The notes under the pieces are model-generated. The model was not told where the DNA came from. It searched no databases and saw only the letters and a program-made list of their open reading frames with translations. The translations under genes and the position numbers were made by a program. Shown here one piece after another: positions 9,923 through 34,930 of a stretch of DNA of 46,285 nucleotides. The stretch is from Lachnospiraceae bacterium (lineage in GTDB: Bacteria > Bacillota > Clostridia > Lachnospirales > Lachnospiraceae): the NCBI GenBank assembly GCA_022781985.1, contig JALESH010000032.1, positions 1-46,285 on the forward strand, given 5' to 3'. Numbering within the stretch: position 1 is the stretch's first letter; every line of letters starts with the position of its first letter.

Positions 9923-10330
9923 AAGGGTTTGAGTGGACCTTTACAGGGAAGGTATCTGTTACCGGCCGGAAGCCTGCTTCCGGCTGCATAAAAGGGGCTG
10001 CTGCATCGGGCTAGGGGACTGTTGATTTAAGCTTTGAATTTAAAGATGAAGAGACAGGACAGCCCGGGCGGCAGTCCCTTTATCTGCCGCAGAGCTGTGC
10101 GGAATGCAGCTGAAATAAAAACCAGAGAAAACCTCGTTTAAAGCCATATACTGCCTAAGCTGTATTGACGAAAAAGGAGACATGTGTCATAATATGCTTA
10201 AATAACCAATAATTTCACTTTTTTTTCGTGCATATTTGGTAAATCTGCCGATTGCTGTCGGAAAAAGGCATAAATGTGGGATTTTGAGGTGTCTATGGAT
10301 TACAAAGCTATCAAGTTGGGAGGAAGAAAG
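9923..10330 (+). other. 408-bp non-coding interval with hairpins between fucI and transporter
   Basis: No supported gene. It contains a perfect 8-bp hairpin, GCCGGAAG (9965-9972) with CTTCCGGC (9977-9984) and a four-base loop, and a 7-bp hairpin GCGGCAG (10068-10074) with CTGCCGC (10084-10090). Neither is followed by a U tract, so they are not canonical terminators; RNA stabilisation or 3'-end processing is possible. The right end holds the promoter described separately. No known riboswitch class was recognised. Confidence 0.5.
10165..10222 (+). promoter_or_regulatory. Promoter of the sugar ABC transporter operon with TCACTTTT element
   Basis: TTGACG (10165-10170) and CATAAT (10188-10193) are spaced by 17 bp, a reasonable sigma-A promoter. 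The sequence TCACTTTT at 10215-10222 repeats the element seen in the fucI promoter, here just downstream of the expected transcription start. That position suits repression or a different promoter than the one drawn here. The shared motif suggests common control of isomerase and transporter. Confidence 0.5.
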
Positions 10331-15150: not shown

Positions 15151-15191
15151 AAATTAAAATAAATCTAAAAATGATAAAGGAGGAACATATT

Positions 15192-15632
15192 ATGTTAAAA
15201 GGTATTCCTAAGATCTTGTCCCCGGAGCTGTTGAAGGTATTGGCGGAAATGGGGCACAGCGACAGGCTGGTTATATCTGACGGAAATTTTCCGGCTGCAT
15301 CCATGGGGAAAAATGCTGTTGTGATCAGAATGGACGGCCATGGGGTTCCTGAGATCCTGGACGCTGTTTTGCAGCTGTTTCCACTGGACACCTATGTGGA
15401 GAAGCCGGTCAGGCTGATGGAGGTGATGAAGGGGGACAATGTGGAAACACCCATCTGGGATACATATAAGGAGATAATTGCAAAGTATGACGGCAGAGGT
15501 GCGGAGGCCGTAGGCAATCTGGAGCGCTTTCGCTTTTATGAGGAGGCCAGAACCGCATATTGTATTATAGCAACAGGAGAGTCGGCGCTGTATGCCAATG
15601 TGATGCTCCAGAAGGGCGTAGTTACTGATTGA
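15192..15632 (+). CDS. fucU: L-fucose mutarotase (RbsD/FucU family)
   Basis: 146 aa, the usual size for FucU, which speeds interconversion of the alpha and beta anomers of L-fucose so that the isomerase gets its substrate. The N-terminus MLKGIPKILSPELLKVLAEMGHSD carries the conserved GHSD (His22), and Asp30 lies in VISDGNFPA, both typical active-site residues. The ATG at 15192 is chosen because AAAGGAGG lies eight bases upstream; the ATG at 15171 has no such site. It is the first gene after the strong stem-loop and lies in the order fucU, unknown protein, kinase. Confidence 0.93.
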   Translation: MLKGIPKILSPELLKVLAEMGHSDRLVISDGNFPAASMGKNAVVIRMDGHGVPEILDAVLQLFPLDTYVEKPVRLMEVMKGDNVETPIWDTYKEIIAKYDGRGAEAVGNLERFRFYEEARTAYCIIATGESALYANVMLQKGVVTD

Positions 15633-15669
15633 GAACAGCGGGCAGAAGTGGGATGACCGGAGGAGATTC

Positions 15670-16107
15670 ATGTTAGAACAGGCAGCGACGATGTTTGATG
15701 GGATGCAGCGGATGATGAAAAGGCTGAAGAAGGCATCTTATGAGACGAATATGAAGGAATTTCGAAAAAAAAACCAGGAATTCCTGAAGGAAATGACGGA
15801 TTATGTGGAAGGAAGAGAAGACAAGGAGACAGCTGCCGGAGAGATTGCAGAGGTTTTCGTAGAAAGGATAAAGGATGCCTTCGAGAGGAAGGGGAAAATC
15901 AAAGGGACAACCCAGACAGATCTAAATTTCTTTATGATCTACTATGTATTTCCTGCCATCCTGCTGACAGAACATGAGGATGCCGGGACAGTGGCCGATG
16001 CCCTCTGTGAGAGCTGGGGGGCAGGCTTTAAAAACAGTAAAATCGGATATACAGATTACGGGACTCTGTACAAATCCTTCAGGGAAAAGATATTCGGCAT
16101 ATTCTAG
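15670..16107 (+). CDS. Conserved-looking protein of unknown function in fucose cluster
   Basis: 145 aa, mostly alpha-helical and highly charged, with no signal peptide or membrane segment. The first 60 residues look like a basic amphipathic helix pair (RMMKRLKKASYETNMKEF), followed by a helical domain with TDLNFFMIYYVFPAILL and a C-terminal FREKIFGIF. GGAGGAG precedes the start. It sits between fucU and the kinase, 14 bp before the latter, so it is translated from the same message. I do not recognise a family; a role in sugar metabolism or its regulation is suggested only by position. Confidence 0.8.
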   Translation: MLEQAATMFDGMQRMMKRLKKASYETNMKEFRKKNQEFLKEMTDYVEGREDKETAAGEIAEVFVERIKDAFERKGKIKGTTQTDLNFFMIYYVFPAILLTEHEDAGTVADALCESWGAGFKNSKIGYTDYGTLYKSFREKIFGIF

Positions 16108-16121
16108 AAAGGAAGATGAGG

Positions 16122-17519
16122 ATGAGCAGCTATTTTTTGGCAATAGATATAGGGGCTTCCAGCGGAAGGCATATTCTTGGAAGTGTGGAAGACGGGAAAA
16201 TTGTGTTGGAAGAGGTGTATCGCTTCTGGAACGGCATGGATGAGGAGGATGGCACCCTGTACTGGGATACAGACAGGCTCTTTGGTGAGATTCTGGCAGG
16301 GATGAAAAAGTGCAAAGAGATGGGTAAGATTCCGGTCAGCGTAGGAGTAGATACCTGGGGCGTGGATTTTGTGCTTCTGGATGAGGAGGATCAGATCGTA
16401 GGAAAGGCTGTGGGCTATCGTGATCACAGGACAGAGGGCATGGATGAGGAGGTATATCAAATCATATCGGAGGAGGAGCTTTATGCCAGAACCGGGATCC
16501 AGAAGGCTATTTATAATACCATCTATCAGCTCATGGCTTTGAAGAAAAGGAGACCGGCGGATTTGGAGAGGGCGGCTTCCCTGCTGATGATACCGGACTA
16601 TTTCCATTACAGGCTCAGCGGAAAGAAGGTACAGGAGTACTCGGAGGCAAGCACCAGCCAGCTGCTGAATCCTGAGACAAAGGACTGGGACTATGAACTG
16701 ATAGAGATGCTGGGCTTTCCCACAGGCATTTTCCAGAGCATCCGGATGCCGGGAACTACCGTGGGCTGTCTGACGGAAAAGGTGCAGGAGGTGGTGGGAT
16801 ATAACTGTAAGGTGGTGCTGCCGCCCTCCCATGACACAGCTTCTGCAGTGATGGCTGTACCTTCCAATGAAGAGGATACCTGTTATATCAGCTCCGGTAC
16901 CTGGTCTCTGATAGGAGTGGAGAGAGGAGAGCCGGACTGCTCCCCCAAAAGCAGGGCGGCCAACTTTACCAATGAGGGAGGCTATGGAGGCAGGATCACC
17001 TATCTGGCCAATATCATGGGCCTGTGGATGATTCAGTCCGTGAGGAATCAGCTGGCGCCGGACATGTCCTATGGAGAGCTTTGCCGTCAGGCATCCCGGG
17101 AAAAGATCGCTTCCCTGGTGGACTGTCAGGATGAAAGCTTCCTTTCCCCCAGGGATATGGTAAAGGCGGTGCAGTCATACTGTGAAAAAACAGGCCAGGA
17201 GGTACCTCTTACCCTCTCCCAGCTGGCCTGTGTCATCTACAATTCCCTGGCAAAATGCTATGGAGAAAAGCTGCAGGAGATTCGGAAAATCACCGGAACC
17301 CAATATGATAAGATCCATATTATCGGGGGCGGCTCCAATGCGGTGTATCTGAATGAGCTGACGGCGAAATACACGGGGATCTCCGTACATGCGGGTCCCG
17401 GTGAGGCCACTGCCATCGGCAATATTCTGGCCCAGATGCTGGAGGAGGGTGAGTTCGGGGATCTGAGGGAGGCCAGACGCTGTGTGGCAGATTCCTTTGA
17501 AATCATGATTTATGGGTAA
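16122..17519 (+). CDS. FGGY-family sugar kinase, rhamnulokinase-like; probable L-fuculokinase
   Basis: 465 aa, two-domain FGGY kinase that phosphorylates a ketose at C1 to give the aldolase substrate. The N-terminal phosphate loop reads DIGASSGR (residues 9-16), the form typical of rhamnulokinase RhaB rather than fuculokinase FucK. Also visible are DTWGVDF, the substrate-domain YRDHRT, SSGTWSLIG and the adenosine motif IIGGGSNA. It may accept L-fuculose, L-rhamnulose or both; no rhamnose isomerase gene is in the window, so fuculose is the best guess. The ATG at 16122 has AAAGGA eight bases upstream. Its end overlaps the ParA gene by 8 bp. Confidence 0.9.
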   Translation: MSSYFLAIDIGASSGRHILGSVEDGKIVLEEVYRFWNGMDEEDGTLYWDTDRLFGEILAGMKKCKEMGKIPVSVGVDTWGVDFVLLDEEDQIVGKAVGYRDHRTEGMDEEVYQIISEEELYARTGIQKAIYNTIYQLMALKKRRPADLERAASLLMIPDYFHYRLSGKKVQEYSEASTSQLLNPETKDWDYELIEMLGFPTGIFQSIRMPGTTVGCLTEKVQEVVGYNCKVVLPPSHDTASAVMAVPSNEEDTCYISSGTWSLIGVERGEPDCSPKSRAANFTNEGGYGGRITYLANIMGLWMIQSVRNQLAPDMSYGELCRQASREKIASLVDCQDESFLSPRDMVKAVQSYCEKTGQEVPLTLSQLACVIYNSLAKCYGEKLQEIRKITGTQYDKIHIIGGGSNAVYLNELTAKYTGISVHAGPGEATAIGNILAQMLEEGEFGDLREARRCVADSFEIMIYG

Positions 17520-18330
17520 AATGAAAGTACAGGAAAACAACCAGAGGATCACACAAACTATCTGCTTTGCCAATAATAAGGGCGGGAGCGGGAAAACAAC
17601 TGCCTGTGCCAATCTGGGCTTTGAGCTGGCAGCTGCAGGAAAAAGGGTTCTGCTGATCGATGGCGATATGCAGCTCAATCTTTCTCTTTCCTTTTTTGAT
17701 GAGGTAAGGGTGCTGGATATGGCGGCCCGGAAGCAGAATCTGTACTATGCTGTGAGGGAGAAGCGGGACCTGGCGGCTTATATCGTTCCTACCCCCTATG
17801 AAAACCTGGAGCTGGTTCCTTCCTCCACCCTGATGAGCCAGATAGAGTATGAGCTGTTTCCCATGCTTCGGAGGGAGTATGTGCTTAAGGGCTGCCTGAG
17901 ACAGGTGTATGAGTCCGGGCGGTATGATTATGTACTGATTGATGCGCCTCCCACCCTGGGAGCCTGGGTGATCAATATTCTTTGCGCCTCTGACTACGTG
18001 ATCGTTCCGGTGGAGGCATCTCCCTGGGGGCTGTTCGGACTGGCGAATATGTTTGATTTTCTGCAGGAGATGAGGGAATTAACGGAAGCCAGGGTTATGG
18101 GTGTCTTGATCAGCAAGGTGGATGAACGGAAAAATTATTATCGGCAGACCAGGGAGATTTTGAAGGAATATGCCAATATTCATGTATTTGATGTCTGCAT
18201 TCATGTGGACAGTTCTGTGGAATGGGCCCAGGATGGGTCGGTTCCCGTAGCGGTTTACAGGAAGGGAACCAGAAGTGCAAAGGAGTTTCGGGAATTGGCA
18301 AAGGAGGTAATGAGCAATGGCAGTAGGTGA
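17512..18330 (+). CDS. ParA-type ATPase (candidate microcompartment-positioning protein)
   Basis: 272 aa. A deviant Walker A motif with signature lysine, NNKGGSGKTT (Lys23, Lys28), Walker A' LLIDGDMQLNLS and Walker B YVLIDAPPTLG mark the ParA/MinD/Soj family, which forms ATP-driven gradients on the nucleoid or membrane. No ParB gene or parS-like cluster is near and this is not a plasmid region. Instead it is coupled to the fucose kinase gene (overlapping its stop) and to a 73-aa disordered protein, in the same locus as a microcompartment operon. McdA of carboxysomes is the closest functional parallel. Start could also be ATG 17521. Family assignment is firm; the compartment role is inference. 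Confidence 0.9.
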   Translation: MGKMKVQENNQRITQTICFANNKGGSGKTTACANLGFELAAAGKRVLLIDGDMQLNLSLSFFDEVRVLDMAARKQNLYYAVREKRDLAAYIVPTPYENLELVPSSTLMSQIEYELFPMLRREYVLKGCLRQVYESGRYDYVLIDAPPTLGAWVINILCASDYVIVPVEASPWGLFGLANMFDFLQEMRELTEARVMGVLISKVDERKNYYRQTREILKEYANIHVFDVCIHVDSSVEWAQDGSVPVAVYRKGTRSAKEFRELAKEVMSNGSR

Positions 18331-18538
18331 AGGCAGTATGGCAAGGGCCGGCAGGGCAGCGGATGCCGGGACGGAAAGGGCAGAGGCAGATAGGGCAGAA
18401 GAAAAGAAGGAAGCCGTAAAAAAAACTGCCCCCCGGAAAAGGGCAGCAGCAAAGCCTGTACCAAAATCAGAGACAGCAGGCCCGGCGGGGAATGAAAGCG
18501 TCCAGGTGGGAGAGGCCATGCCCATCTATTATTATTAG
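18317..18538 (+). CDS. Small disordered Ala/Lys/Arg-rich protein, possible ParA partner
   Basis: 73 aa, starting inside the ParA gene end (14-bp overlap) with AAGGAGG at 18301-18307, nine bases before the ATG. The sequence is low complexity: Ala, Glu, Lys and Arg dominate, with no hydrophobic core, then a basic stretch (KKTAPRKRAAAKPVPK) and an abrupt aromatic tail MPIYYY at the C-terminus. This looks like an intrinsically disordered adaptor with a short terminal binding motif. Its coupling to ParA suggests it stimulates or recruits the ATPase. No homology is claimed. Confidence 0.72.
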   Translation: MAVGEGSMARAGRAADAGTERAEADRAEEKKEAVKKTAPRKRAAAKPVPKSETAGPAGNESVQVGEAMPIYYY

Positions 18539-19385: not shown

Positions 19386-20240
19386 TCAGCGGAACCGTTC
19401 AAAAATCTCTACCGATTTTCCTGCATCTGTATGGGGCAGAAAGACATAGTGAAACGCTCTTTCTATTTGCCATCCTTCTACCCGAAATTCTGCCAGCAGG
19501 GGATTTTGTCCTCCTGCAATCTGGTAAGCAAAGGTTATACCGCAGCTTCTGGCCACTAATTGCTCCAATAATGCCAGATTGCCGATGCTGATGATCCGGT
19601 GAAAGTCATACAGGGAATGATTTTCCGCCAGCAGCATCCGTTCCAATATGCTTCTGGATCCGGAGCCCTTTTCCCTCACAACAATGGTTTCTTTCCACAG
19701 ATCTGCCAGGGCAACTGTCCGGCCTGCAAAGGGATGCTGTCTGCTGCAAAAGCCGATATAAGGCTCTGTCCTGTAGAGCCTGTGGTCGTACAGCTTCCGG
19801 TCGAAAAAACCTTCAATCAAAGCAAAGTCTATCCTGCCCTCATCCAATAATTCAAGAATACGCAGGGTGTTGTCTGTTTCAATAGATAAGCGGTTGGCCG
19901 GTTCTGCCAAAAAACGTTCCACCTGGCCGGCGATCACATACTCACCGATTGTTTTTGTAGTTCCTATCGAAAAATGGCAGCCTGACGGGGCTCCCATATT
20001 TTCTATGAGCTTCTGCTCCTGGTAGTGCTGGCTGTAGGCATAACGCAGCAGCAGCCTGGCATGGCAGGTCATGGACAGCTTCCGCTTCTCATAGGAAAAC
20101 AGCCGGCAGCCATAATGCTCCTCCAGATATTTTATATGCTGGGTGACTGCCGGCTGTGTGATATTCAGGGCTTCTGCCGTCCGCCGGTAATTCATGGTCC
20201 TGCATAGGGTGACAAAGGTTTCCATTCTGTAATCAAGCAT
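19386..20240 (-). CDS. LysR-family transcriptional regulator (YeiE-like)
   Basis: 284 aa from the ATG at 20240. An N-terminal winged helix-turn-helix (FVTLCRTMNYRRTAEALNI then TQPAVTQHIKYLEEHYG) is followed by the periplasmic-binding-like effector domain, with the CysB/YeiE-type RIDFALIEGFFDRK segment and REKGSGSR. It is divergent from a YeiH-family exporter gene, an arrangement found for yeiE-yeiH, so the two are probably regulator and target. An ATG at 20267 would add nine residues. Confidence 0.9.
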   Translation of the reverse strand: MLDYRMETFVTLCRTMNYRRTAEALNITQPAVTQHIKYLEEHYGCRLFSYEKRKLSMTCHARLLLRYAYSQHYQEQKLIENMGAPSGCHFSIGTTKTIGEYVIAGQVERFLAEPANRLSIETDNTLRILELLDEGRIDFALIEGFFDRKLYDHRLYRTEPYIGFCSRQHPFAGRTVALADLWKETIVVREKGSGSRSILERMLLAENHSLYDFHRIISIGNLALLEQLVARSCGITFAYQIAGGQNPLLAEFRVEGWQIERAFHYVFLPHTDAGKSVEIFERFR

Positions 20241-20284
20241 AATATATCCATCATATTTTGTTATCATTTAATCAGTATTCATAA

Positions 20285-20314
20285 TTATACTTTATCATTC
20301 TTCCTTGATATAAT
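20285..20314 (+). promoter_or_regulatory. Probable promoter of the YeiH-family gene
   Basis: TATAAT at 20309-20314 with a weak -35 (TTATAC at 20285-20290, 18-bp spacing). The flanking sequence is AT-rich and contains ATAATTAT (20281-20288). A weak -35 is consistent with activation by the divergent LysR protein, but no exact operator can be claimed. Confidence 0.4.
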
Positions 20315-20348
20315 CAACCTATCTTCTTATAGAAAGGCTGATGTGAAT

Positions 20349-21377
20349 ATGAAAAAGTATGTAAAAATTATTCCGGGATTTGCCGTTTCCCTCGCTATTG
20401 CTTTGGCTGCCAGATGGGCAGAAGCCCTTCTTCCTGTCCACTTCATAGGGGCTTCGGTCCTTGCCCTGTTTATAGGGATGCTGATCAATTATTTCCGTAA
20501 GCCGGGAGACGCAATGATGGTGGGATTGAAATTTACTTCGAAAAGAATCCTAAAGTTCGCCATCATTTTATTAGGTGCCTCACTCAGCATGGGTACGGTT
20601 CTGGAGGTAGGGAAGTTCTCCCTTGCCGTGATGGTCGTTACCCTTTTGACCTGCTTTGGAGGCGGCTATTTTATCGGCAGGAGCCTGGGGCTGAACTGGA
20701 AGCTCTCTAATCTGATCTCTGCCGGCACCGGGATCTGCGGAGGCTCTGCCATTGCCGCCATTGCTCCGGTGATTGATGCGGAAGACAGCGATATCGCCTA
20801 TGCAATGTCTGCCACCTTCCTGTTTGACATTGCCATGATCGTCCTTTTCCCGATCATGGGGCATGCCCTGGGACTGAGCGATATGGCCTATGGCCTGTGG
20901 TCAGGAACTGCTGTCAATGACACCTCCAGCGTTGTGGCTGCCGGGTATGCCTTTTCTGAGGCTGCCGGAGACTTTGCCACCATGGTGAAGCTGACCCGTA
21001 CCCTGGCGATCATTCCCACAGTTATTATATTTGCTTTTATCGGACTGAATATACAAAAGAAGGAAGCCGCAGCCAGGGGAAATGCAGCAGGAGAAACGGC
21101 CCGGATCCATATCCTGTCCATTTTTCCCTGGTTTATCCTGGGTTTTCTGGGACTGGCGGCTGCCAACAGCCTGGGCCTTGTTCCCTACGCCCTTTCCCTG
21201 GCAGCAAAGGATTTGAGCAAGCTGCTGATGGTCTGCGCCCTGGCAGCCATCGGACTGAACACAAGCCTGAGAGATTTCAAAAAATCAGGCGTTGCCCCCA
21301 TGCTTCACGGATTTATCATCTCTGCCCTGGTAGTGGTGGCAGCCATCGCTGTAGAATATGCTATTGGAATTATATAG
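20349..21377 (+). CDS. yeiH: YeiH/UPF0324-family membrane protein, putative sulfate/sulfite exporter
   Basis: 342 aa polytopic membrane protein with about ten hydrophobic helices. Family hallmarks: HFIGASVLALFIGMLIN near the start, LKFAIILLGASLS, GTGICGGSAIAAIAPVI in the middle and AAIGLNTSL near the end. Annotated in databases as a putative sulfate exporter; the transported substrate is not established. The ATG at 20349 is preferred over GTG 20343. It is divergent from the LysR gene and does not belong functionally with the sugar or shell genes on either side. Confidence 0.9.
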   Translation: MKKYVKIIPGFAVSLAIALAARWAEALLPVHFIGASVLALFIGMLINYFRKPGDAMMVGLKFTSKRILKFAIILLGASLSMGTVLEVGKFSLAVMVVTLLTCFGGGYFIGRSLGLNWKLSNLISAGTGICGGSAIAAIAPVIDAEDSDIAYAMSATFLFDIAMIVLFPIMGHALGLSDMAYGLWSGTAVNDTSSVVAAGYAFSEAAGDFATMVKLTRTLAIIPTVIIFAFIGLNIQKKEAAARGNAAGETARIHILSIFPWFILGFLGLAAANSLGLVPYALSLAAKDLSKLLMVCALAAIGLNTSLRDFKKSGVAPMLHGFIISALVVVAAIAVEYAIGII

Positions 21378-21471: not shown

Positions 21472-21515
21472 ACCAAAAAAACTGATAAATAAAGATGGTG
21501 AATGTTTGTTTCTTG

Positions 21516-21544
21516 TTGACTTGTATGCAGAAACATACTATAAT
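21516..21544 (+). promoter_or_regulatory. Strong promoter of the microcompartment operon with palindrome in spacer
   Basis: TTGACT (21516-21521) and a perfect TATAAT (21539-21544) with a 17-bp spacer. Within the spacer lies the palindrome GTATG (21523-21527), six bases, CATAC (21534-21538). A near-consensus promoter with an operator between -35 and -10 indicates control by repression; the DeoR-type regulator encoded in the operon is the obvious candidate. Confidence 0.7.
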
Positions 21545-21598
21545 CAGTTTATCAGAATAGTGAGCTTATGGTGGGGAAAGGCAGGAGAGGGCAGCAGT

Positions 21599-21952
21599 AT
21601 GGAAAACAAGCAACGAATCATTCAGGAGCTGGTACCGGGAAGGCAGATCACCCTGGCACATATCATAGCCAATCCGGATAGTGTATTATATGAAAAGCTG
21701 GGACTGAACCCTTCCGTGGAGGCTGTAAGGTCAGCCATCGGGGTTCTGACTGTCAGTCCGGCGGAAACCGCCATCATTATGGCCGACATCGGAATCAAAG
21801 CCTCAGGCGCAGCCCTGGGCTTTGTAGACCGGTTTTCCGGGTCAGTGATACTGACTGGGACTATATCTGAGGTGGAGGCCTCCCTCCAGGCCATCCTGGA
21901 TTATGTGGCCCATACCCTGGGGTACAGCACATGCCCCATTACAAGGACTTAG
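21599..21952 (+). CDS. pduU: BMC shell protein, PduU/EutS-like (circularly permuted BMC-S)
   Basis: 117 aa single BMC domain of the permuted type. The N-terminus RIIQELVPGRQITLAHIIANP is the segment that forms the small beta-barrel capping the hexamer pore in PduU and EutS, followed by AIGVLTVSPAETAIIMADIGIKASGAALGFVDRFSGSVILTG in two stretches. It forms a hexameric tile in the facets of the compartment. The ATG at 21599 lies 55 bp after the -10; GGAGAGG upstream is a somewhat distant ribosome binding site. First gene of the shell operon; the next gene starts 1 bp after its stop. Confidence 0.93.
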   Translation: MENKQRIIQELVPGRQITLAHIIANPDSVLYEKLGLNPSVEAVRSAIGVLTVSPAETAIIMADIGIKASGAALGFVDRFSGSVILTGTISEVEASLQAILDYVAHTLGYSTCPITRT

Positions 21953-21953
21953 T

Positions 21954-22403
21954 ATGAAGAGGCTGATCTTGATCGGCCGCAGTGGGGTCGGTAAAACCAC
22001 ACTGGCGCAGGCGCTGAGGGGGGAAGCTGTCTGTTACAAAAAAACACAGTATGTGAGCTATTCTGATGTGATCATCGACACCCCGGGAGAATATCTCCAG
22101 ACCGCCGGTCTGGGAGCGGCGCTTGCCCTGTATTCCTATGAGGCTGATGTGGCAGGGCTGCTGGCTGCGGCGACGGAGCCCTATTCCCTGTATCCGCCCA
22201 ATATTACCTGTATGGTAAACCGGGATGTGATAGGTATCGTCACTCAGATCGACAGGCCGGAGGGCAATGCAGAGCAGGCGGAGAATTGGCTGAGGCTGGC
22301 AGGCTGTAAAACAATTTTTCATGTGAATGCCAAAAGCGGCGAAGGCATAACAGAGCTTCTCAGATATTTAAGAGAGCCGGGAGAGGAAGGGGCTCCGGTA
22401 TGA
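21954..22403 (+). CDS. PduV/EutP-family GTPase-like protein
   Basis: 149 aa with a P-loop GRSGVGKTT (residues 8-16), a DTPGEY switch motif and TQID / NAKSGEG segments fitting a small Ras-like GTPase fold. This is the EutP/PduV family, found in catabolic microcompartment operons; PduV has been reported to associate with the shell and to affect compartment movement, while EutP has kinase activity in one study. The start follows directly on the PduU-like gene. Its exact task here is open. Confidence 0.9.
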   Translation: MKRLILIGRSGVGKTTLAQALRGEAVCYKKTQYVSYSDVIIDTPGEYLQTAGLGAALALYSYEADVAGLLAAATEPYSLYPPNITCMVNRDVIGIVTQIDRPEGNAEQAENWLRLAGCKTIFHVNAKSGEGITELLRYLREPGEEGAPV

Positions 22404-22487: not shown

Positions 22488-23288
22488 ATGGCACTGAATG
22501 AATACGAAATCAAAAAAATGATCTGCGATGTGGGCAAAAGGATATACGACCGCAACATGGTGGCGGCAAATGACGGAAATATTTCCGTAAAATTAAACGA
22601 TAATGAGTTCTTATGCACCCCCACCGGTGTGTCCAAGGGCTTTATGACACCTGAGTTTATCTGCAAGGTGGACGCCAGGGGCAATGTGATACAGGCCAAT
22701 AAGGGCTTTAAGCCCTCCTCCGAGATCAAAATGCATATGCGGGTATATGCGAAAAGACCGGATGTAGGAGCGGTAGTACATGCCCATCCTACCTTTGCCA
22801 CCAGCTTTGCCATTGCGGGGATTCCGCTGACTCAGCCGATCATGCCGGAGGCAGTCATTGCTCTGGGCTGCGTACCCATCGCACCCTACGGTACTCCCTC
22901 TACCAATGAGATTCCCGATGCAGTAGAGCCTTATCTGGAGCATTTTGATGCCGTATTATTGGAGAGCCATGGGGCACTGACCTGGTCTACGGATCTGATG
23001 GCCGCATATATGAAGATGGAATCCGTAGAGTTTTATGCAGAACTGCTGTACAAGGCAAAGCAGCTGGGCGGGCCTAAGGAATTTGACAAGGAGCAGATCC
23101 AGAAACTGTATGAGATCAGGAGGCAGATGGGACTCCCGGGACGCCATCCGGCAAATCTCTGCCAGAACAAGGGTAAGGAAAACTGCCACAACTGCGGCGG
23201 CGGATGCAGCACCTCTCCCCAGAAGGATGACAGTCAGGAGCTGGTAGCGGCAATTACCAAAAAGGTGCTGGAGCAGTTGGGCAAATAA
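22488..23288 (+). CDS. fucA: Class II aldolase (L-fuculose-1-phosphate aldolase type) with encapsulation helix
   Basis: Splits the ketose 1-phosphate into DHAP and L-lactaldehyde. The FucA/AraD fold occupies residues 1-215: catalytic Glu79 (SSE) and zinc ligands His98, His100 (VHAHP) and His161 (ESHGA). Beyond the fold is a linker with four cysteines (Cys225, 233, 236, 240; C-x7-C-x2-C-x3-C) and then a C-terminal amphipathic helix ELVAAITKKVLEQLGK, a typical encapsulation peptide that should carry the enzyme into the shell. At 266 aa it is about 50 longer than E. coli FucA. AAAGGAG precedes the start. It lies inside the shell operon, away from fucI and the kinase gene, fitting a compartment that takes the sugar phosphate. 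Confidence 0.93.
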   Translation: MALNEYEIKKMICDVGKRIYDRNMVAANDGNISVKLNDNEFLCTPTGVSKGFMTPEFICKVDARGNVIQANKGFKPSSEIKMHMRVYAKRPDVGAVVHAHPTFATSFAIAGIPLTQPIMPEAVIALGCVPIAPYGTPSTNEIPDAVEPYLEHFDAVLLESHGALTWSTDLMAAYMKMESVEFYAELLYKAKQLGGPKEFDKEQIQKLYEIRRQMGLPGRHPANLCQNKGKENCHNCGGGCSTSPQKDDSQELVAAITKKVLEQLGK

Positions 23289-26409: not shown

Positions 26410-26778
26410 ATGGTTATTAGTATGGAAAACCTTGCATTACAGGAAGCGGGCAAGACCTGTGGACAGCAGGAGGCAGTGGGATTGCTGGAGGTGTTTGGGC
26501 TGGTGTGTGCTTTTCTGGCCGCAGATGCAGGCTGCAAGGCAGGCAATGTAAGGCTGGAGGTCTTTGATAAGAATAAGCCGGCCAATGCCGACGCGCTGCC
26601 TGTTCCCCTGCTGGTTACCGTCAAGTTCAGGGGAGGTATTGCGGATGTGGAGGAGGCGATGCGGGCGGCAGAGGCGGTTGCGGCAGCCCATACCGGAATC
26701 GTATCCAGGCATATCATTCCAAGACCTACACAGGATACAGAAAAGATGCTGAAAATCAGCGCATTGGATAAAAATTAA
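26410..26778 (+). CDS. Divergent BMC-S shell protein with extended pore loop
   Basis: 122 aa with a BMC domain: [27 protein letters not shown] at the start and [15 protein letters not shown] at the end match the EutM/PduA frame. Where PduA-type proteins have the short pore loop KIGSG, this protein has a much longer Pro/Asn/Ala segment ([14 protein letters not shown]) before [11 protein letters not shown] 17-residue N-terminal leader is also present. The altered loop should change the size or chemistry of the hexamer pore. It opens a run of four consecutive BMC-S genes. An AGAAAGGG site precedes the chosen ATG. Confidence 0.85.
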
Positions 26779-26806
26779 AACGAATTATATTATGGAGGAT
26801 GAGAGG

Positions 26807-27088
26807 ATGGCACAGGAAGCATTAGGAATGGTAGAAACAAGAGGACTCACAGCAGCCATTGAGGCAGCGGATGCAATGACCAAGGCAGCGGAGGTTGCAC
26901 TGGTGGGAACGGAAAAAATCGGTTCCGGACTGGTAACGGTTATGGTTCGCGGGGATGTGGGTGCCGTGAAGGCGGCAGTAGAGGCTGGCACCAGCGCAGC
27001 CAGCAGGCTGGGAGAGCTGGTGGCAACCCATGTGATTCCCAGGCCCCACAATGATGTGGAAAAGATTCTTCCCAAATTCAAGGGCTAA
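26807..27088 (+). CDS. pduA: BMC-S shell protein, PduA/EutM type (copy 1)
   Basis: 93 aa, canonical hexameric shell tile: [21 protein letters not shown], the pore loop [23 protein letters not shown] and the C-terminal [16 protein letters not shown]. Pore-lining Gly-Ser suggests passage of small polar metabolites such as 1,2-propanediol, as shown for PduA. The ATG at 26807 follows GGAGG by seven bases; an upstream ATG at 26792 contains that site and is rejected. Very similar to the copy at 27497, with a different shell gene between them. Confidence 0.96.
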
Positions 27089-27113
27089 GGCAGGGATTTA
27101 AAGGAGAGGCGGC

Positions 27114-27494
27114 ATGGGTAACGCATATGGATTCATAGAAATCACAGGTGTTGTGGCGGCAATGGATGCTCTGGATATTATGTGCAAGGCGGCAGATGTT
27201 ACGCTGGCCACCTGGGAGAGAAAGCTGGGCGGCAGGCTGGTTACACTGGTGGTGGAAGGAGAGGTGGAGGCAGTCCGGCAGTCAGTGGAGGCTGCCGCAG
27301 CCAATGCTTTGAAACGGCCGGTATCAACAGGGATCCTGCCCAATCCACATCCGGAAATCATAAGGATGGTAGAGCTGTCGGCAAGCCGTTTTAAGGGAAA
27401 ACCGGAGCCCTCCTCCAAGTCCAGGCTGCTTGGAGAGGATCCCCCGGATTTCGTTCCCAAAGAGGAAAAACAGACGATCAATAAGGAGGAATAG
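27114..27494 (+). CDS. BMC-S shell protein with charged C-terminal extension
   Basis: 126 aa. Residues 1-90 are a BMC domain ([34 protein letters not shown]), with a pore loop ERKLGGR instead of EKIGSG. The last 35 residues are a hydrophilic, probably disordered extension rich in Lys, Glu, Ser and Pro ([10 protein letters not shown]...[11 protein letters not shown]). The extension may reach into the lumen to hold cargo or bind another shell tile. AAAGGAG precedes the start. It separates the two PduA-like copies. Confidence 0.92.
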
Positions 27495-27496
27495 TT

Positions 27497-27772
27497 ATGG
27501 CATTAGAGGCGTTAGGAATGGTAGAGACCAGAGGATTGGTAGCAGCGGTTGAAGCCGCAGATGCGATGTGCAAAGCGGCGAATGTAACCCTGGTGGGCAC
27601 AGAGAAGATCGGCTCCGGCCTGGTGACCGTCATGGTACGGGGGGACGTAGGAGCAGTAAAGTCAGCTGTAGAAGCAGGGGCAAACAGTGCCGGCTCCTTG
27701 GGAGAGCTGGTGGCAACCCATGTGATCCCCAGGCCCCACGGCGATGTGGAAATGATACTGCCCAAGGCATAG
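27497..27772 (+). CDS. pduA: BMC-S shell protein, PduA/EutM type (copy 2)
   Basis: 91 aa canonical hexamer subunit with EKIGSG pore loop and [17 protein letters not shown] end. It differs from the 26807 product at only a minority of positions, so it arose by duplication. Differences such as Cys in [10 protein letters not shown] for Thr lie away from the pore. AAGGAGG at 27483-27489 precedes the ATG. A 10-bp stem-loop lies just downstream. Confidence 0.96.
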
Positions 27773-28555: not shown

Positions 28556-28825
28556 ATGATTATCGGGAAGGTTGTGGGAAGCTTATTTTCCACGAGAAAA
28601 AGTGAAAAATTAGTGGGCAACAAATTTATGATTGTAGAACCTGCAGAAACCATGGGATCAGCCGGGAGCCGTCTGGTTGCCATAGATATTATCGGAGCCG
28701 GAATCGGAGAATATGTGATGGTGGCACAGGGATCGGCTGCAAGGATCGGCTGCGACATGAAGGACGCTCCCATTGACGCAGCCATAGTAGGAATCATTGA
28801 TGAAGGACAGGATTGGAGCAGATAA
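28556..28825 (+). CDS. eutN: BMC vertex protein (EutN/CcmL family)
   Basis: 89 aa EutN/CcmL/PduN-type subunit that forms the pentamers closing the twelve vertices of the shell. Typical features: MIIGKVVGSLFSTRK at the start, ... KFMIVEP, AIDIIGAGIGEYVMVAQGSAAR and AIVGIID at the end. Its stop is 3 bp before the PduS start. Confidence 0.95.
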   Translation: MIIGKVVGSLFSTRKSEKLVGNKFMIVEPAETMGSAGSRLVAIDIIGAGIGEYVMVAQGSAARIGCDMKDAPIDAAIVGIIDEGQDWSR

Positions 28826-30156: not shown

Positions 30157-30196
30157 TGCGCGGGAGCATGGCAGCGTGGGAAGAAAGGGAGAGAGT

Positions 30197-30745
30197 ATGG
30201 CCAAAGCAATTGGTATGGTGGAATGTACTACGGTGGCCACCGGATTTAAAGCAGTGGATGGAATGGCAAAGGCGGCAGAGGTTGAGGTGCTGGAGGCAGA
30301 GGTGACCTGTCCCGGTAAATTTGTCATTCTGGTGAGCGGGGATCTGAGCGCGGTTCGCGCGGCGGTGGATTATGCAGCCGGAGCCTATGGGGAAAAAATC
30401 ATGGATACCTTTGTTCTGGGAAATCCTCATGAGGCAATTTTTCCTGCCATCTACGGAACAGCCCAGCCGGAAAAAATAGAAGCGCTGGGCATTTTGGAAA
30501 CCTATGATGTGGCTGCCCTCATTGTGGCGGCTGACCTAGCGGCCAAAACGGCCATTGTAGAGCTGATTGAACTGCGTCTGGCCAAGGGAATGTGCGGAAA
30601 AAGCTATATGCTGCTGACGGGCAGTGTATCCGCCGTGGAGGCTGCCATTGAAAAGGCCAAGGCAGAGGCGGGAGAGCGGGGCATGCTCCTGGACAGTTCC
30701 GTGATCGCCCGTCCCAGTGACAAAATCATGAAATATATTTTCTAA
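30197..30745 (+). CDS. pduT: BMC-T shell protein, PduT type with Fe-S ligand
   Basis: 182 aa with two tandem BMC domains (start KAIGMVECTTVATGFKAVDGM; second near EALGILETYDVAALIVAADLA), forming trimers. Cys38 in VTCPGKF corresponds to the cysteine that holds a 4Fe-4S cluster in the trimer pore of PduT, so an electron conduit across the shell is expected. It directly follows pduS, its usual partner. The ATG at 30197 follows GGGAGAG. Confidence 0.94.
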   Translation: MAKAIGMVECTTVATGFKAVDGMAKAAEVEVLEAEVTCPGKFVILVSGDLSAVRAAVDYAAGAYGEKIMDTFVLGNPHEAIFPAIYGTAQPEKIEALGILETYDVAALIVAADLAAKTAIVELIELRLAKGMCGKSYMLLTGSVSAVEAAIEKAKAEAGERGMLLDSSVIARPSDKIMKYIF

Positions 30746-30774: not shown

Positions 30775-31560
30775 ATGCTTGCAGTGGAACGACGGAAGAG
30801 AATACTGGAAAAAGTCTATGAGGAAAAGAAGGTTATTGTCAGCGGGCTGAGCAGGGAATTTAATGTATCGGAGGAAACCATCCGCAGAGATCTGGAAAAG
30901 CTGGCGGAGGAAGGGCATATTATTAAAAGCTATGGAGGAGCCGTCATCAATGAAAGGGGAAATATTGACCTGCCCTTTAATGTGAGATGGAAATCCAGTA
31001 CTTTGGGAAAACAGAAAATTGCGGAGCTGATCCGTGAGGAGATTCAGGACGGAGAGCATATTTTCCTGGATGCTTCCACTACAGCAGTTTTTATAGCGAA
31101 AAATATAAAATGTAAAAAGCATATGACAATTATCACCAATTCTATTGAAAACCTGCTGGAGCTGTCCGATGTGTCGGGCTGGGATATTATCAGTACAGGA
31201 GGGCTTCTGAAGGCAGGCTCCATGGCTTTGATAGGGAAAAAAGCGGCGGACGGCATCGAGTGCTACAATGCAGATAAGCTTTTTTTCTCCTGCAAGGGAC
31301 TGGATTTGGAGAAGGGGGTCCTGGAAGGCAATGATGAGATGGCCGGTATCAAACAGAGCATGATCCATTCTGCAGCCAGGGTGTATCTGGCGGCAGATTC
31401 CTCAAAGTTTGATAAGGTGGCTTTTTCCAGGATCTGTCCTCTCTCCCGTCTGGATGCCATCGTGACGGATCAAAGACCGGAGGAAAGATGGATGCAGGCT
31501 TTGGAGGAATATGGGATACAATGCATTTATCCCAGGCAGAAACCTCAAAAAACAGATTAG
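30775..31560 (+). CDS. DeoR-family transcriptional regulator
   Basis: 261 aa. N-terminal winged helix-turn-helix (VERRKRILEKVYEEKK, then VSGLSREFNVSEETIRRDLEKL) and a C-terminal sugar-phosphate sensor domain with FLDASTTAVFIAKNI and AADSSKFDKVAFSRICPL, typical of DeoR/GlpR repressors. Such regulators respond to phosphorylated sugars; fuculose 1-phosphate or a metabolite of it is plausible. It lies between pduT and the diol dehydratase gene, and GGAGGAAGA precedes the ATG. Probable repressor of the microcompartment promoter near 21520. Confidence 0.93.
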   Translation: MLAVERRKRILEKVYEEKKVIVSGLSREFNVSEETIRRDLEKLAEEGHIIKSYGGAVINERGNIDLPFNVRWKSSTLGKQKIAELIREEIQDGEHIFLDASTTAVFIAKNIKCKKHMTIITNSIENLLELSDVSGWDIISTGGLLKAGSMALIGKKAADGIECYNADKLFFSCKGLDLEKGVLEGNDEMAGIKQSMIHSAARVYLAADSSKFDKVAFSRICPLSRLDAIVTDQRPEERWMQALEEYGIQCIYPRQKPQKTD

Positions 31561-31586
31561 ACCAAGGAAAGGAATGGGAACAGGAG

Positions 31587-34118
31587 ATGGTTACATATAA
31601 CAGCACACCCGTTGCAAAATCCCACCGGATCGGCAGGCTGGTGGAACATTTGTTTGCGAAAATGCCCGAAATCGAAGCCTCCCGGGCAGAACTGATTACG
31701 GAAGCCTATCAGCAGACGGAGGGGCTGCCGACAATTATTCGCAAGGCCAGGGCACTGGAGCATATTTTGAAGAATCTTCCTATTATCATCCGTCCGGAAG
31801 AGCTGATCGTCGGGAGTACCACACTGGCCCCCAGAGGCTGTCAGACCTATCCGGAATTTTCTTACGAATGGCTGGAGGCAGAGTTTGATACAGTGGCGGC
31901 TCGAAGTGCTGACCCCTTCTATATTTCGGATGACACAAAGGAAAGATTATTGAAGGCCAATGCATACTGGAAGGGAAAGACAACCAGCGAATTGGCAACC
32001 TCCTATATGGCGCCCGAGACTCTGCGGGCAATGAAGCACAATTTCTTTACCCCCGGCAACTACTTCTACAATGGAGTGGGGCATGTTACCGTGCAGTATG
32101 ATCAGGTGCTCCGTCTGGGCCTGAAGGGCATCAGGGGCAAAGCGGAGAAGGAGATGGAGGAGTGCCGGTTCGGGGATCCGGACTATGCCACAAAGATGCG
32201 CTTTCTGGAAGCGGTGGTGATTTCCTGTGATGCGGTCATTGCCTATGCAAACCGCTACGCGGTATTGGCAGAGGAGATGGCCGGCCGGGAGAAGGATGCC
32301 GGCCGGCAGAAAGAATTGATGAGGATCTCGGAAATCTGCAGGAGAGTTCCGGAGCACCCGGCAGAGAGCTTTCAGGAGGCCTGCCAATCCTTCTGGTTTA
32401 TTCAGCAGGTGCTTCAGATTGAGTCCAGCGGACATTCCATTTCACCGGGACGTTTCGACCAGTATATGTACCCCTATTATGAGAAGGACCGGCAGGCCGG
32501 CACCCTGACCAGAGAGTACGCTCAGGAATTGATCGACTGTATCTGGGTAAAGCTGAACGATCTGAATAAATGCAGGGATGCAGCCAGTGCGGAGGGCTTT
32601 GCAGGGTATTCCCTGTTCCAGAATCTCATTGTAGGCGGGCAGACGGCGGACGGAAGGGATGCCACCAACGATCTCTCCTTTATGTGCATTGATGCTTCTC
32701 ATCATGTATTTCTGCCTCAGCCCTCTCTTTCCATCCGAGTGTGGAACGGCTCCTCCAAGGAGCTGCTGCTGAGGGCGGCGGAATTGACCAGGACGGGCAT
32801 CGGCCTGCCGGCCTACTATAATGATGAGGTGATCATCCCGGCACTGATCAACCGGGGCATATCCATGGATGATGCCAGAGGGTACAATATCATAGGCTGT
32901 GTGGAGCCTCAGGTTCCGGGAAAGACGGACGGCTGGCATGATGCGGCGTTTTTCAATATGTGCCGTCCCCTGGAAATGGTATTCTCCAACGGATATGATG
33001 GGGGAGAGCAGGCCAGCATACAGACGGGAGAGGTGGAGTCCTTCCGAACCTTTGAGGAGTTTTATGAGGCATATGAAAAGCAGATGAACTATAATATTTC
33101 CCTGCTGGTAAATGCAGACAATGCCATTGACCTGGCTCACGCGGCCCTCTGCCCTCTGCCCTTCCTTTCCTGCCTGGTGGATGACTGTATCAGAAAGGGG
33201 ATCAGCGTACAGGAAGGCGGTGCCGTATACAACTTTACAGGGCCCCAGGGCTTTGGCATCGCCAATGTGGCGGACTCCTTATATACCGTAAAGAAGCTGG
33301 TATTTGAGGAAAAGAAGGTAACCATGGGAGAGCTGAAACGTGCTCTGTCCATGAATTTCGGAAAGGGCTTTGATGAAATCACGGCCAGGGAAATCGCCCT
33401 GCAGGTGGGACGGGAGCTGGCTGCCCGGGGGCAGGAGGTCACAGAGGAAATGATCGCTGCCACTATCAGGCAGGTATTGGCCATGGAATTGCCGGAGGCA
33501 GAAAAGAAACGTTATCAGGAGATTCTGGATCTGATCGATGAGCTGCCCAAGTTCGGCAACGATCTGGATGAGGTGGACAGTATGGCCAGGGAGGCGGCCT
33601 ATCTGTATACCAGGCCGCTGCAGCAGTACAGGAATCCCAGGGGAGGGATATTCCAGGCGGGACTGTATCCGGTATCGGCCAATGTGCCCCTGGGCGCGCA
33701 GACCGGAGCCACACCGGACGGAAGGCTGGCCCATACCCCGGTAGCCGACGGCGTATCCCCTTCCTCGGGAAGGGATGTGAACGGTCCTACCGCAGCATGC
33801 AACTCTGTGGCGCGGCTGGATCACAGCATAGCCAGCAACGGCACCCTGTTCAATATGAAGATGCACCCTACGGCAATGTCCGGGCAGAAGGGGCTGGAGA
33901 ACTTTGTATCCCTGATCCGGGGCTATTTTGACCAGAAGGGCATGCATATGCAGTTCAATGTGGTGGATCGCCAGACCCTGCTGGATGCCCAGAAAAATCC
34001 GGAAAAATACAGTGGGCTGGTGGTGCGTGTGGCAGGCTATTCCGCGCTTTTTACAACTCTTTCCAAGTCTCTCCAGGATGATATCATCCGCAGAACGGAG
34101 CAGGCAGTGAATCGATAA
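31587..34118 (+). CDS. B12-independent 1,2-propanediol dehydratase (glycyl radical enzyme)
   Basis: 843 aa glycyl radical enzyme. The active-site loop is GCVEPQ with thiyl Cys438 and Glu440; the radical loop is RVAGYSALF with Gly817. His166 (GVGHVTV) and an Asp in GKTDGWHD complete the diol/glycerol dehydratase pattern. These positions match what I recall for the Roseburia inulinivorans propanediol dehydratase. It converts (S)-1,2-propanediol to propionaldehyde. The ATG at 31587 is adjacent to CAGGAG; longer in-frame starts (31488, 31521) lie in the DeoR gene and give no amphipathic helix. Unlike five other cargo candidates it shows no clear encapsulation peptide. Confidence 0.95.
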   Translation: MVTYNSTPVAKSHRIGRLVEHLFAKMPEIEASRAELITEAYQQTEGLPTIIRKARALEHILKNLPIIIRPEELIVGSTTLAPRGCQTYPEFSYEWLEAEFDTVAARSADPFYISDDTKERLLKANAYWKGKTTSELATSYMAPETLRAMKHNFFTPGNYFYNGVGHVTVQYDQVLRLGLKGIRGKAEKEMEECRFGDPDYATKMRFLEAVVISCDAVIAYANRYAVLAEEMAGREKDAGRQKELMRISEICRRVPEHPAESFQEACQSFWFIQQVLQIESSGHSISPGRFDQYMYPYYEKDRQAGTLTREYAQELIDCIWVKLNDLNKCRDAASAEGFAGYSLFQNLIVGGQTADGRDATNDLSFMCIDASHHVFLPQPSLSIRVWNGSSKELLLRAAELTRTGIGLPAYYNDEVIIPALINRGISMDDARGYNIIGCVEPQVPGKTDGWHDAAFFNMCRPLEMVFSNGYDGGEQASIQTGEVESFRTFEEFYEAYEKQMNYNISLLVNADNAIDLAHAALCPLPFLSCLVDDCIRKGISVQEGGAVYNFTGPQGFGIANVADSLYTVKKLVFEEKKVTMGELKRALSMNFGKGFDEITAREIALQVGRELAARGQEVTEEMIAATIRQVLAMELPEAEKKRYQEILDLIDELPKFGNDLDEVDSMAREAAYLYTRPLQQYRNPRGGIFQAGLYPVSANVPLGAQTGATPDGRLAHTPVADGVSPSSGRDVNGPTAACNSVARLDHSIASNGTLFNMKMHPTAMSGQKGLENFVSLIRGYFDQKGMHMQFNVVDRQTLLDAQKNPEKYSGLVVRVAGYSALFTTLSKSLQDDIIRRTEQAVNR

Positions 34119-34135
34119 GGAAGGTGAAGACCAGG

Positions 34136-34930
34136 ATGAAAGATTACATGAATGTTTCGGGCAGGATCTTTGATATCCAAAGATACTCCATTCATGACGG
34201 TGCAGGGATCCGAACCATTATCTTCCTGAAGGGCTGTGCCCTCCGATGCAGATGGTGCTGCAATCCCGAGTCCCAGTCCTTTGACATAGAGTCCATGACG
34301 GTAAACGGAAGGCGCAAAACCATGGGAAGGGATGTTACGGTGATGGAGGTGATGCAGACCGTAAAAAGGGATATGCCTTATTACAGCCGCTCTGACGGAG
34401 GCTTGACCCTGTCCGGAGGGGAATGCCTGCTGCAGCCGGAATTTGCAAAGGCCCTTCTGATGGCCGCTAAGGATATAGGGATCAATACGGCCATCGAGAG
34501 CATGGGATATGCCGGAGACGGGACAGTGGAAGGGATTCTTCCCTATCTGGATACCTATCTGATGGACGTTAAGCATATGAATCCCAAAAAGCATGCTGAA
34601 TTTACCGGAAAGGAAAATACCCGGATGCTGGAAAATGCAAAAAGGGTGGCAGAAAGCGGCCTGACGGAGCTGATTATCCGTGTGCCTGTGGTGCCGGGAT
34701 TTAACGAGACGGAGGAGGAGATTCTGGCAATCGCTTCATTTGCAGACTCTCTTTCCGGGGTAGAGGAGATTCATCTGCTGCCCTACCACAGCTATGGGAG
34801 GGGAAAGTATGAGGGGCTGGGCAGAGCCTATCCTATGGGGGATGTACAGACGCCCCCTCCTGAGCATATGCAGATGCTCAGGGCATCAGTGGAGCGGCAC
34901 ACAGGGCTGCGTTGTCAGATCGGAGGCTGA
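34136..34930 (+). CDS. Glycyl-radical enzyme activating enzyme (radical SAM)
   Basis: 264 aa. Installs the glycyl radical on Gly817 of the neighbouring dehydratase. The radical-SAM cluster ligands are Cys34, Cys38 and Cys41 (GCALRCRWC); SGGECLLQPEF is the SAM-binding GGE motif and IIRVPVVPGFN a later family motif. The insertion with two ferredoxin-like clusters common in glycerol and choline activases is missing: after Cys42 the sequence runs NPESQSFDIES with no further Cys run. ATG 34136 has GGAAGGTG upstream. Six bases or so separate it from the dehydratase stop region; last gene of the operon before a terminator. Confidence 0.94.
   Translation: MKDYMNVSGRIFDIQRYSIHDGAGIRTIIFLKGCALRCRWCCNPESQSFDIESMTVNGRRKTMGRDVTVMEVMQTVKRDMPYYSRSDGGLTLSGGECLLQPEFAKALLMAAKDIGINTAIESMGYAGDGTVEGILPYLDTYLMDVKHMNPKKHAEFTGKENTRMLENAKRVAESGLTELIIRVPVVPGFNETEEEILAIASFADSLSGVEEIHLLPYHSYGRGKYEGLGRAYPMGDVQTPPPEHMQMLRASVERHTGLRCQIGG

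Follow-up and report, generated by a model that had tools for sequence, protein, structure and literature searches.

A ParA-type ATPase and a two-ended adaptor as a candidate positioning pair for fucose/rhamnose glycyl-radical microcompartments

In the literature covered here, papers being cited for the passages available to us, experimental proof of ParA-type positioning of bacterial microcompartments (BMCs) is given for carboxysomes only. In the McdAB systems of Synechococcus elongatus and Halothiobacillus neapolitanus, the gene for a ParA-type ATPase precedes that of a small low-complexity adaptor, whose N-terminus is charged and whose C-terminal end carries an aromatic residue. In Halothiobacillus, the first 20 residues of McdB are required for binding to McdA and suffice for it (PMC12204374), and the C-terminal aromatic residue of McdB is required for carboxysome association, with Tyr largely able to substitute for Trp (PMC11321042). 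McdAB-like pairs have also been predicted in glycyl radical enzyme microcompartment (GRM) and propanediol utilization (PDU) loci (PMC11321042), in ethanolamine utilization (EUT) and PDU loci (PMC13052382) and in several BMC operons (PMC8262871). Placement and inheritance of catabolic microcompartments is the general problem addressed by the gene pair described here, a ParA-type ATPase and a small adaptor encoded in contig JALESH010000032.1 of a Lachnospiraceae bacterium; "the window" means the whole stretch of DNA that was analysed, 46,285 nucleotides.

The ParA gene of the window (17512..18330, plus strand) encodes a 272-residue ATPase that matches PF13614 with 166.7 bits (cut-off 27). Its Walker A motif is NNKGGSGKTT, a deviant form with the signature Lys23, as in McdA, and both Lys23 and Lys28 are invariant in an alignment of 21 ParAs; the ATPase motifs are intact. 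This protein is the proposed motor and would form a nucleoid-bound gradient. Directly downstream, as in McdA/McdB, and overlapping the 3′ end of the ParA gene by 14 nucleotides, lies an open reading frame (ORF) of 73 codons (18317..18538, plus strand). Its translation contains 17 Ala, 9 Glu, 7 Lys, 7 Gly and 6 Arg and belongs to a family with conserved ends; at E 0.001 it matches nothing in Pfam or NCBIfam, and Pfam gives nothing even at E 1. We regard it as a putative McdB-like cargo adaptor: the N-terminal motif MAVGEGSMARAGRA (18317..18358, plus strand) would be the ParA-binding end, and the last nine residues, GEAMPIYYY (18509..18535, plus strand), would be the shell-binding end, by analogy with the C-terminal aromatic residue of McdB (PMC11321042). 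On the other side, the 3′ end of a kinase gene (rhaB, discussed below) overlaps the start of the ParA gene by 8 nucleotides. The original prediction, made from this DNA alone, had pointed out the signature lysine, both overlaps and the tail MPIYYY, all of which are evident from the coordinates and translations. It had also proposed that the pair is a counterpart of McdAB for a fucose microcompartment, and this proposal has gained support from the pairing of the two genes across a family, from the presence of BMC genes in 53 of 53 ParA-positive genomes and from the separate clade formed by the ParAs.

We consider it probable that the pair is an McdAB-like system that positions the fucose/rhamnose glycyl-radical microcompartment. 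By analogy with the carboxysome system, ATP-bound ParA dimers would coat the nucleoid. The N-terminal end of the adaptor, basic in nearly all relatives, would bind ParA and trigger ATP hydrolysis and release, the low-complexity middle would serve as a flexible tether, and the C-terminal aromatic/leucine tail would dock onto the shell. ParA would then be depleted locally around each compartment, and the compartments would chase the gradient, becoming spaced and shared between daughter cells as carboxysomes are by McdAB.

The family probably works like McdAB, yet it is not McdAB as defined, because the invariant C-terminal tryptophan is missing and the ParA profile is nearer to other ParAs. Family tails are LPxYLL or MPxYYF-like, and Trp is present anywhere in the last ten residues of only two of 74 adaptors. 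Among solved chains, the ParA profile scored 135.2 bits with an unnamed ParA family protein (8ray) and 114.4 bits with Soj, and at most 64.7 bits with McdA. The cargo would also be catabolic in the present case, and some family adaptors hold a ParB_N domain, while McdB is reported to have no identifiable similarity to known ParB proteins (PMC6328274). The predicted BMC pairs share an McdA-like ATPase, an McdB-like protein and Tyr or Phe within the last five residues (PMC11321042), so that GRM-locus pairs with such tails are already in print. Compared by description, the present family may overlap those in PMC11321042, PMC13052382 and PMC8262871; its definition as a family, the genome-wide co-occurrence and the ParB_N link were not met in the available passages of these three papers. 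The genes of the window also resemble GRM5 loci of Clostridium phytofermentans and Roseburia inulinivorans in their aldolase, glycyl radical enzyme, RnfC/PduS-like protein, DeoR regulator and shell genes. The pair itself is not named among the GRM5 ancillary genes in the passages available from PMC4207490, and neither "ParA" nor "positioning" occurs in PMC6325248. In the open-licence literature searched we recognised no paper describing the family in Lachnospiraceae GRM5 loci. New here are the definition of the family, its co-occurrence with BMCs and the five positions on the ParA tree at which adaptors carry a ParB_N-like domain.

A family of paired ParA and adaptor genes

The named-genome loci (numbered L below; genomes are numbered G) are the best 80 of 359 ParA matches, 60-80% identical to the window ParA and mostly from Lachnospiraceae. 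Members include Roseburia inulinivorans DSM 16841, Blautia wexlerae, Robinsoniella peoriensis and Diplocloster agilis. When 60 relatives were searched, two ParAs were more than 50% identical to that of the window (61% and 53%), and the other matches listed were at most 36% identical. In the named loci, the ParA gene is followed by an ORF of 61-224 codons that overlaps it or adjoins it and in which both ends are conserved: it starts roughly as [AS]VGKGSIxRAAKA and ends roughly as [DE][LM]P[VIT][YH][LYF][LF], with a middle rich in Lys, Ala, Pro and Glu. An adaptor with both ends is present in 74 of the 80 loci, 73 by pattern scoring plus L121, which was missed in the first scoring because of an upstream start. 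In L079, L107 and L110 the contig end cuts the adaptor and the N-terminal motif is visible, and in L081, L096 and L122 a pattern search of the fetched flanks found no adaptor ORF. The tail pattern ends just 3 of 6379 other ORFs of at least 50 residues in the same loci, so the pairing is beyond chance, and no ORF with both ends was found in the 41 loci of other ParAs. In the family-wide survey, which returned 30 of 42 ParA places as loci, the adaptor was found in 24 of 30 (22 by the strict pattern and two with Ile at position -6). With a relaxed pattern that allows Ser at position 4, it was found in 9 of 9 loci of the order survey. Outside the order there are two class-level members, L158 with an adaptor and L157 without.

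Statistics on the adaptor ends were taken from 74 adaptors, namely the 73 pattern-scored loci and the window. G4, S7, R10 and P(-5) sat in the selection pattern, and their invariance is therefore circular; the figure free of this is that 74 of the 80 loci pass the pattern, with three contig-end loci showing the N-terminal part. Lys or Arg occupies position 5 in 62 of the 74 adaptors, and the net charge of the first 20 residues is positive in 71. At the other end, position -3 is Tyr in 64 adaptors and His in eight, an acidic residue lies within the five residues before it in 72, and Tyr, Phe or Trp is among the last five residues in 66. Mean pairwise identity falls from 0.60 in the first 14 residues to 0.47 in the last nine and 0.37 in the middle, with 0.32 for shuffled middles (600 random pairs among 99 adaptors, with a selection pattern that favours the ends). 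In the middle, 75% of the residues are A, K, P, E, T, S, Q, G or R, and 16% are hydrophobic. The aromatic tail that had first drawn attention in the window is thus partly a family trait: a conserved C-terminal end is general and [LM]Px[YH][LYF][LF]-like, and the triple-aromatic form is found in some members.

Some ParAs lack an adjacent adaptor. Eight of them form one clade (SH-aLRT, a likelihood-based branch support, 91) made up of six family-survey loci together with L096 and L122, its members being L096, L122, L144, L146, L147, L149, L153 and L156. An ORF for an AraC-like regulator stands directly after ParA in L096, L144, L153 and L156. In L122, a 93-residue ORF (9684-9965, plus strand) lies immediately upstream of ParA and is possibly a replacement partner. 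No relocated adaptor was found by a pattern search of the fetched flanks of the adaptor-less loci; whole genomes were not searched.

Co-occurrence with microcompartments and competing explanations

A pair found equally often in genomes without BMC loci would speak against a role in compartments. In 397 genomes of the window's own family, searched with thresholds of E at most 1e-70 for the ParA profile and at most 1e-8 for the BMC domain, ParA was present in 42 and BMC proteins in 119. All 42 ParA-positive genomes, which span 37 genus groups and include that of the window, carry BMC proteins, compared with 77 of 355 ParA-negative genomes (Fisher p = 2.6e-25, uncorrected for relatedness). The same holds for the eleven ParA genomes of the order and class surveys (G037, G509, G682 and eight more; 11/11), so that BMC proteins are found in 53 of 53 ParA-positive genomes tested, or 52 of 52 without the window's own. 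As a control, nine class-survey genomes with distant ParAs (at most 194 bits, members scoring at least 414) included two with BMC proteins.

The ParA is also associated with GRM5. As a GRM5 marker we took the class II aldolase of the window including its C-terminal extension, with matches of at least 382 bits reaching residue 240 or beyond. The marker was found in 77 own-family genomes, 75 of them with BMC proteins, and in 39 of the 42 ParA genomes. In the other three the aldolase is split at contig ends (G062), shorter or more distant (G119) or missing (G081). Among BMC-positive genomes, ParA was present in 39 of 75 with the marker versus 3 of 44 without it (p = 2.9e-7).

At the level of gene order, at least one shell gene is found within the fetched flank in 36 of the 80 named loci. 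Forty-four loci are well-flanked, with at least 9 kb on both sides; in 22 of these the pair counts as linked to a BMC operon, on the basis of two or more shell or enzyme matches. Linked pairs vary in position: they follow rhaB upstream of the operon, which is the arrangement of the window, or lie behind the DeoR gene at its 3′ end, or come after PduV, the last placement occurring in a more distant GRM operon. On the ParA tree (60 rows, position classes assigned by hand), position class needs at least 12 changes and linked versus unlinked at least five. In one-contig genomes with an unlinked pair, about 91 kb (G1002) or 170 kb (G876) separate it from the closest of the BMC genes listed. Co-transfer of pair and operon as one island explains the co-occurrence poorly, because placements vary and unlinked copies still share the genome with BMC genes.

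The unlinked loci also speak for a different cargo. The pair might position some other component of the same sugar lifestyle, such as a transporter or enzyme cluster, and be tied to BMCs indirectly; half of the well-flanked loci are not beside a BMC operon, and in the window the pair overlaps rhaB rather than shell genes. However, not one of the 53 ParA-positive genomes is BMC-negative, the pair is linked to BMC operons in more than one arrangement, and the coupling to rhaB is limited to part of the loci. We therefore consider another cargo unlikely.

The pair could also be a DNA partition system, of a plasmid, the chromosome or an integrated element, standing beside sugar genes by chance. The motor does belong to the ParA family, its nearest plasmid ParAs (H1 and H2, 39-40% identical to the window ParA) have ParB-type partners, and some adaptors keep a ParB_N-like domain. 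Against this stand the BMC genes in every ParA-positive genome and a tblastn search with the ParA, which gave no match of at least 60% identity among the 5000 best plasmid records or the 177 phage records with a match; a plasmid or phage origin of the pair was accordingly dropped. Moreover, 65-95 residues lie between the GxxRxxA motif and the C-terminus in four ParB_N adaptors, as opposed to 195-207 in four true ParBs. The tree points the same way. Clustering with ParB-partnered ParAs had been named as an outcome that would count against compartment positioning; instead, 84 family rows lie on one side of a branch (SH-aLRT 99), separate from 20 other ParAs selected for comparison. This tree contains no McdA rows and leaves out L003, whose match was too short, and other distant ParAs. 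A second tree, in which 19 of 125 rows were dropped as near-duplicates at 97% identity, keeps just three of the other ParAs plus H1 and H2, the latter two serving as outgroup because their ParAs have ParB-type partners, and likewise has no McdA rows. Both are quick searches with long-branch warnings. In the genome of the window (2.4 Mb in 89 contigs, 91% complete), the sole PF02195 (ParB_N) match is a 37-residue piece of 27.5 bits on another contig; at this completeness the absence of a ParB is not proven. Taken together, a DNA partition role appears very improbable. Finally, the idea that the adaptor is an assembly or regulatory factor of the compartment and that a PduV-like GTPase, not ParA, does the positioning draws on the PduV-like gene at 21903-22403 in the window and on an earlier proposal that PduV positions PDU compartments (cited in PMC8262871), but the ParA and adaptor genes remain paired where the fetched flank has no PduV match, and we give this idea hardly any credence.

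Several observations weigh against positioning of the microcompartment by an McdAB-like pair. First, as noted, 22 of the 44 well-flanked loci are unlinked to a BMC operon. Second, 36 of the 75 genomes with both the GRM5 marker and BMC proteins have no family ParA, so the ParA system is common in, and not required for, the GRM5 compartment. Third, placement of PDU compartments in Salmonella is unchanged by loss of ParA or MinD or by added McdAB (PMC12866334); not every metabolosome, therefore, uses ParA-type positioning. Fourth, the ParA profile scores McdA below both 8ray and Soj, a crude charge-hydropathy rule calls just 34 of 74 adaptors disordered, and the adaptor-less clade of eight, plus L081 and L157, stands without an adjacent partner. 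Fifth, the window itself is unusual: its adaptor has Glu5 where Lys or Arg is the rule, its N-terminal net charge of -1 is the lowest among the 74, and its ParA branch is long (0.34, median 0.15). For these reasons the window copy, which may be diverged or decaying, is not the best representative of the family. The McdAB-like reading makes the family a small, defined test case in named species, including Roseburia inulinivorans and Blautia wexlerae, with a separate prediction for each end of the adaptor.

ParB_N domains in some adaptors

The class-level locus L158 encodes an adaptor of 207 residues in which PF02195 (36.2 bits, cut-off 26.3) is flanked by the two ends typical of the family. The domain is also found above cut-off in L124 (27.9 bits), L132 (51.5 bits) and L155 (39.5 bits), and below it in L172 (18.6 bits, E 0.002) and L174 (22.2 bits, E 1.5e-4). 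L173, which was not scanned itself, is near-identical to L172 and is counted as the seventh ParB_N-like adaptor. The L124 adaptor is located at the end of a GRM5 operon. In the ParA tree the ParB_N adaptors occupy five places, including the first-splitting branch in both quick trees, where branches are long. A profile built from the first four of them and two ParBs gave E of at least 0.48 for the other 96 of 100 adaptors, that of the window included.

The DNA-binding and dimer parts of ParB follow ParB_N. In four of the ParB_N adaptors these parts are apparently gone, because the stretch after GxxRxxA is at least 100 residues shorter than in four true ParBs. No HTH_ParB match was found in the six ParB_N adaptors scanned. 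Compared with the ParAB systems of plasmids and chromosomes (H1 and H2; Soj/Spo0J), the family thus has a homologous ParA and, in seven adaptors, a ParB_N-like domain. It differs in the missing HTH match, in the added tail and in its cargo, which would be protein. A further block, HExKF, stands ahead of the tail in L124, L132, L172-L174 and some adaptors without ParB_N. By similarity of ParB_N, L132 and L155 are each other's closest match. So are L172 and L174, from one genus group, for which other adaptors come next, but L158 and L124 score about equally with ordinary ParBs. A special closeness of the domain to the ParBs of H1 and H2 was considered and dropped when ordinary ParBs of relatives scored higher.

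These ParB_N-like adaptors suggest descent from a DNA-partition ParB. Their scatter over the ParA tree is most simply explained by ParB descent with repeated loss of ParB_N, the alternative being repeated fusion. More specifically, the adaptor may be a domesticated ParB from which the DNA-binding and dimer parts disappeared, while the ParA-activating N-terminus was retained and a shell-binding tail was acquired; for us the case for and against this stronger version is evenly balanced. If it is true, a machine for segregating DNA was turned into one for segregating organelles, lineages that retain ParB_N, among them L132, L155, L158 and L124, would represent intermediates that have survived, and they may still load onto the compartment by means of a cytidine triphosphate (CTP) switch. 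If the ParB link holds, it would give the origin of at least one kind of organelle adaptor, a point left open in the McdB literature. In the open-licence literature searched we found no ParB_N-bearing adaptors, and we report them here as new.

Genes around the pair in the window

The shell operon starts about 3 kb downstream of the pair and has its shell and enzyme genes between 21506 and 34930, those given below with coordinates being on the plus strand; the operon postulated in the original prediction at this distance is borne out by PF00936 and PF03319 shell genes accompanied by enzymes. Its first gene encodes a BMC-domain shell protein (21506..21952; PF00936, 39 bits) and is followed by the gene for the PduV/EutP-like GTPase considered above as a rival positioning factor (21903..22403; PF10662, 165.9 bits). 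The class II aldolase with the C-terminal extension, our GRM5 marker, comes next (22488..23288). Further on there are four consecutive BMC-domain shell protein genes (26410..27772; PF00936 matches), a pentamer-type EutN/CcmL shell protein (28556..28825; PF03319, 101.3 bits) and a double-BMC-domain shell protein (30176..30745; PF00936, 142.3 bits in two stretches), so that the shell set consists of five single-domain proteins, one double and one EutN/CcmL protein. Further downstream come the glycyl radical enzyme of the compartment (31488..34118; TIGR01774, 795.6 bits) and its radical SAM activating enzyme (34124..34930; PF04055, 65 bits). Besides the aldolase, the glycyl radical enzyme and its activase, the enzymes include PTAC (phosphate propanoyltransferase) and aldehyde and alcohol dehydrogenases, and the operon further holds an RnfC/PduS-like protein and a DeoR regulator. 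Aldolase, glycyl radical enzyme with activase, three kinds of shell gene and DeoR, the combination that marks GRM5, are all present in the window.

Upstream of the pair, the kinase gene (16116..17519, plus strand) had been labelled a fucose kinase. This label does not hold: the protein matches the rhamnulokinase profile TIGR02627 with 532.1 bits (cut-off 527.95), and fuculokinase was rejected at 139.1 bits for TIGR02628, far under its cut-off of 470.9. The mutarotase beside this kinase is FucU-like. Since the kinase is rhamnulokinase-like despite the FucU-like mutarotase, the genes at 15171-17519 may serve rhamnose as much as fucose. Between the two, at 15670-16107 (plus strand), lies a gene for a 145-residue protein without a Pfam match, which is matched at 48-62% identity in the equivalent stretch of rhaB-linked loci. 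A match to this protein also lies upstream of the pair in L065 and L068, where no rhamnulokinase is matched in between.

The pair is not part of the shell operon, because two minus-strand genes (PHP and LysR) and a plus-strand YeiH-family gene intervene. The LysR regulator and the YeiH-family (Cons_hypoth698) protein occupy 19386-21377. Across the 80 named loci, matches above 60 bits number none for the LysR regulator and one, in L108, for the YeiH-family protein.

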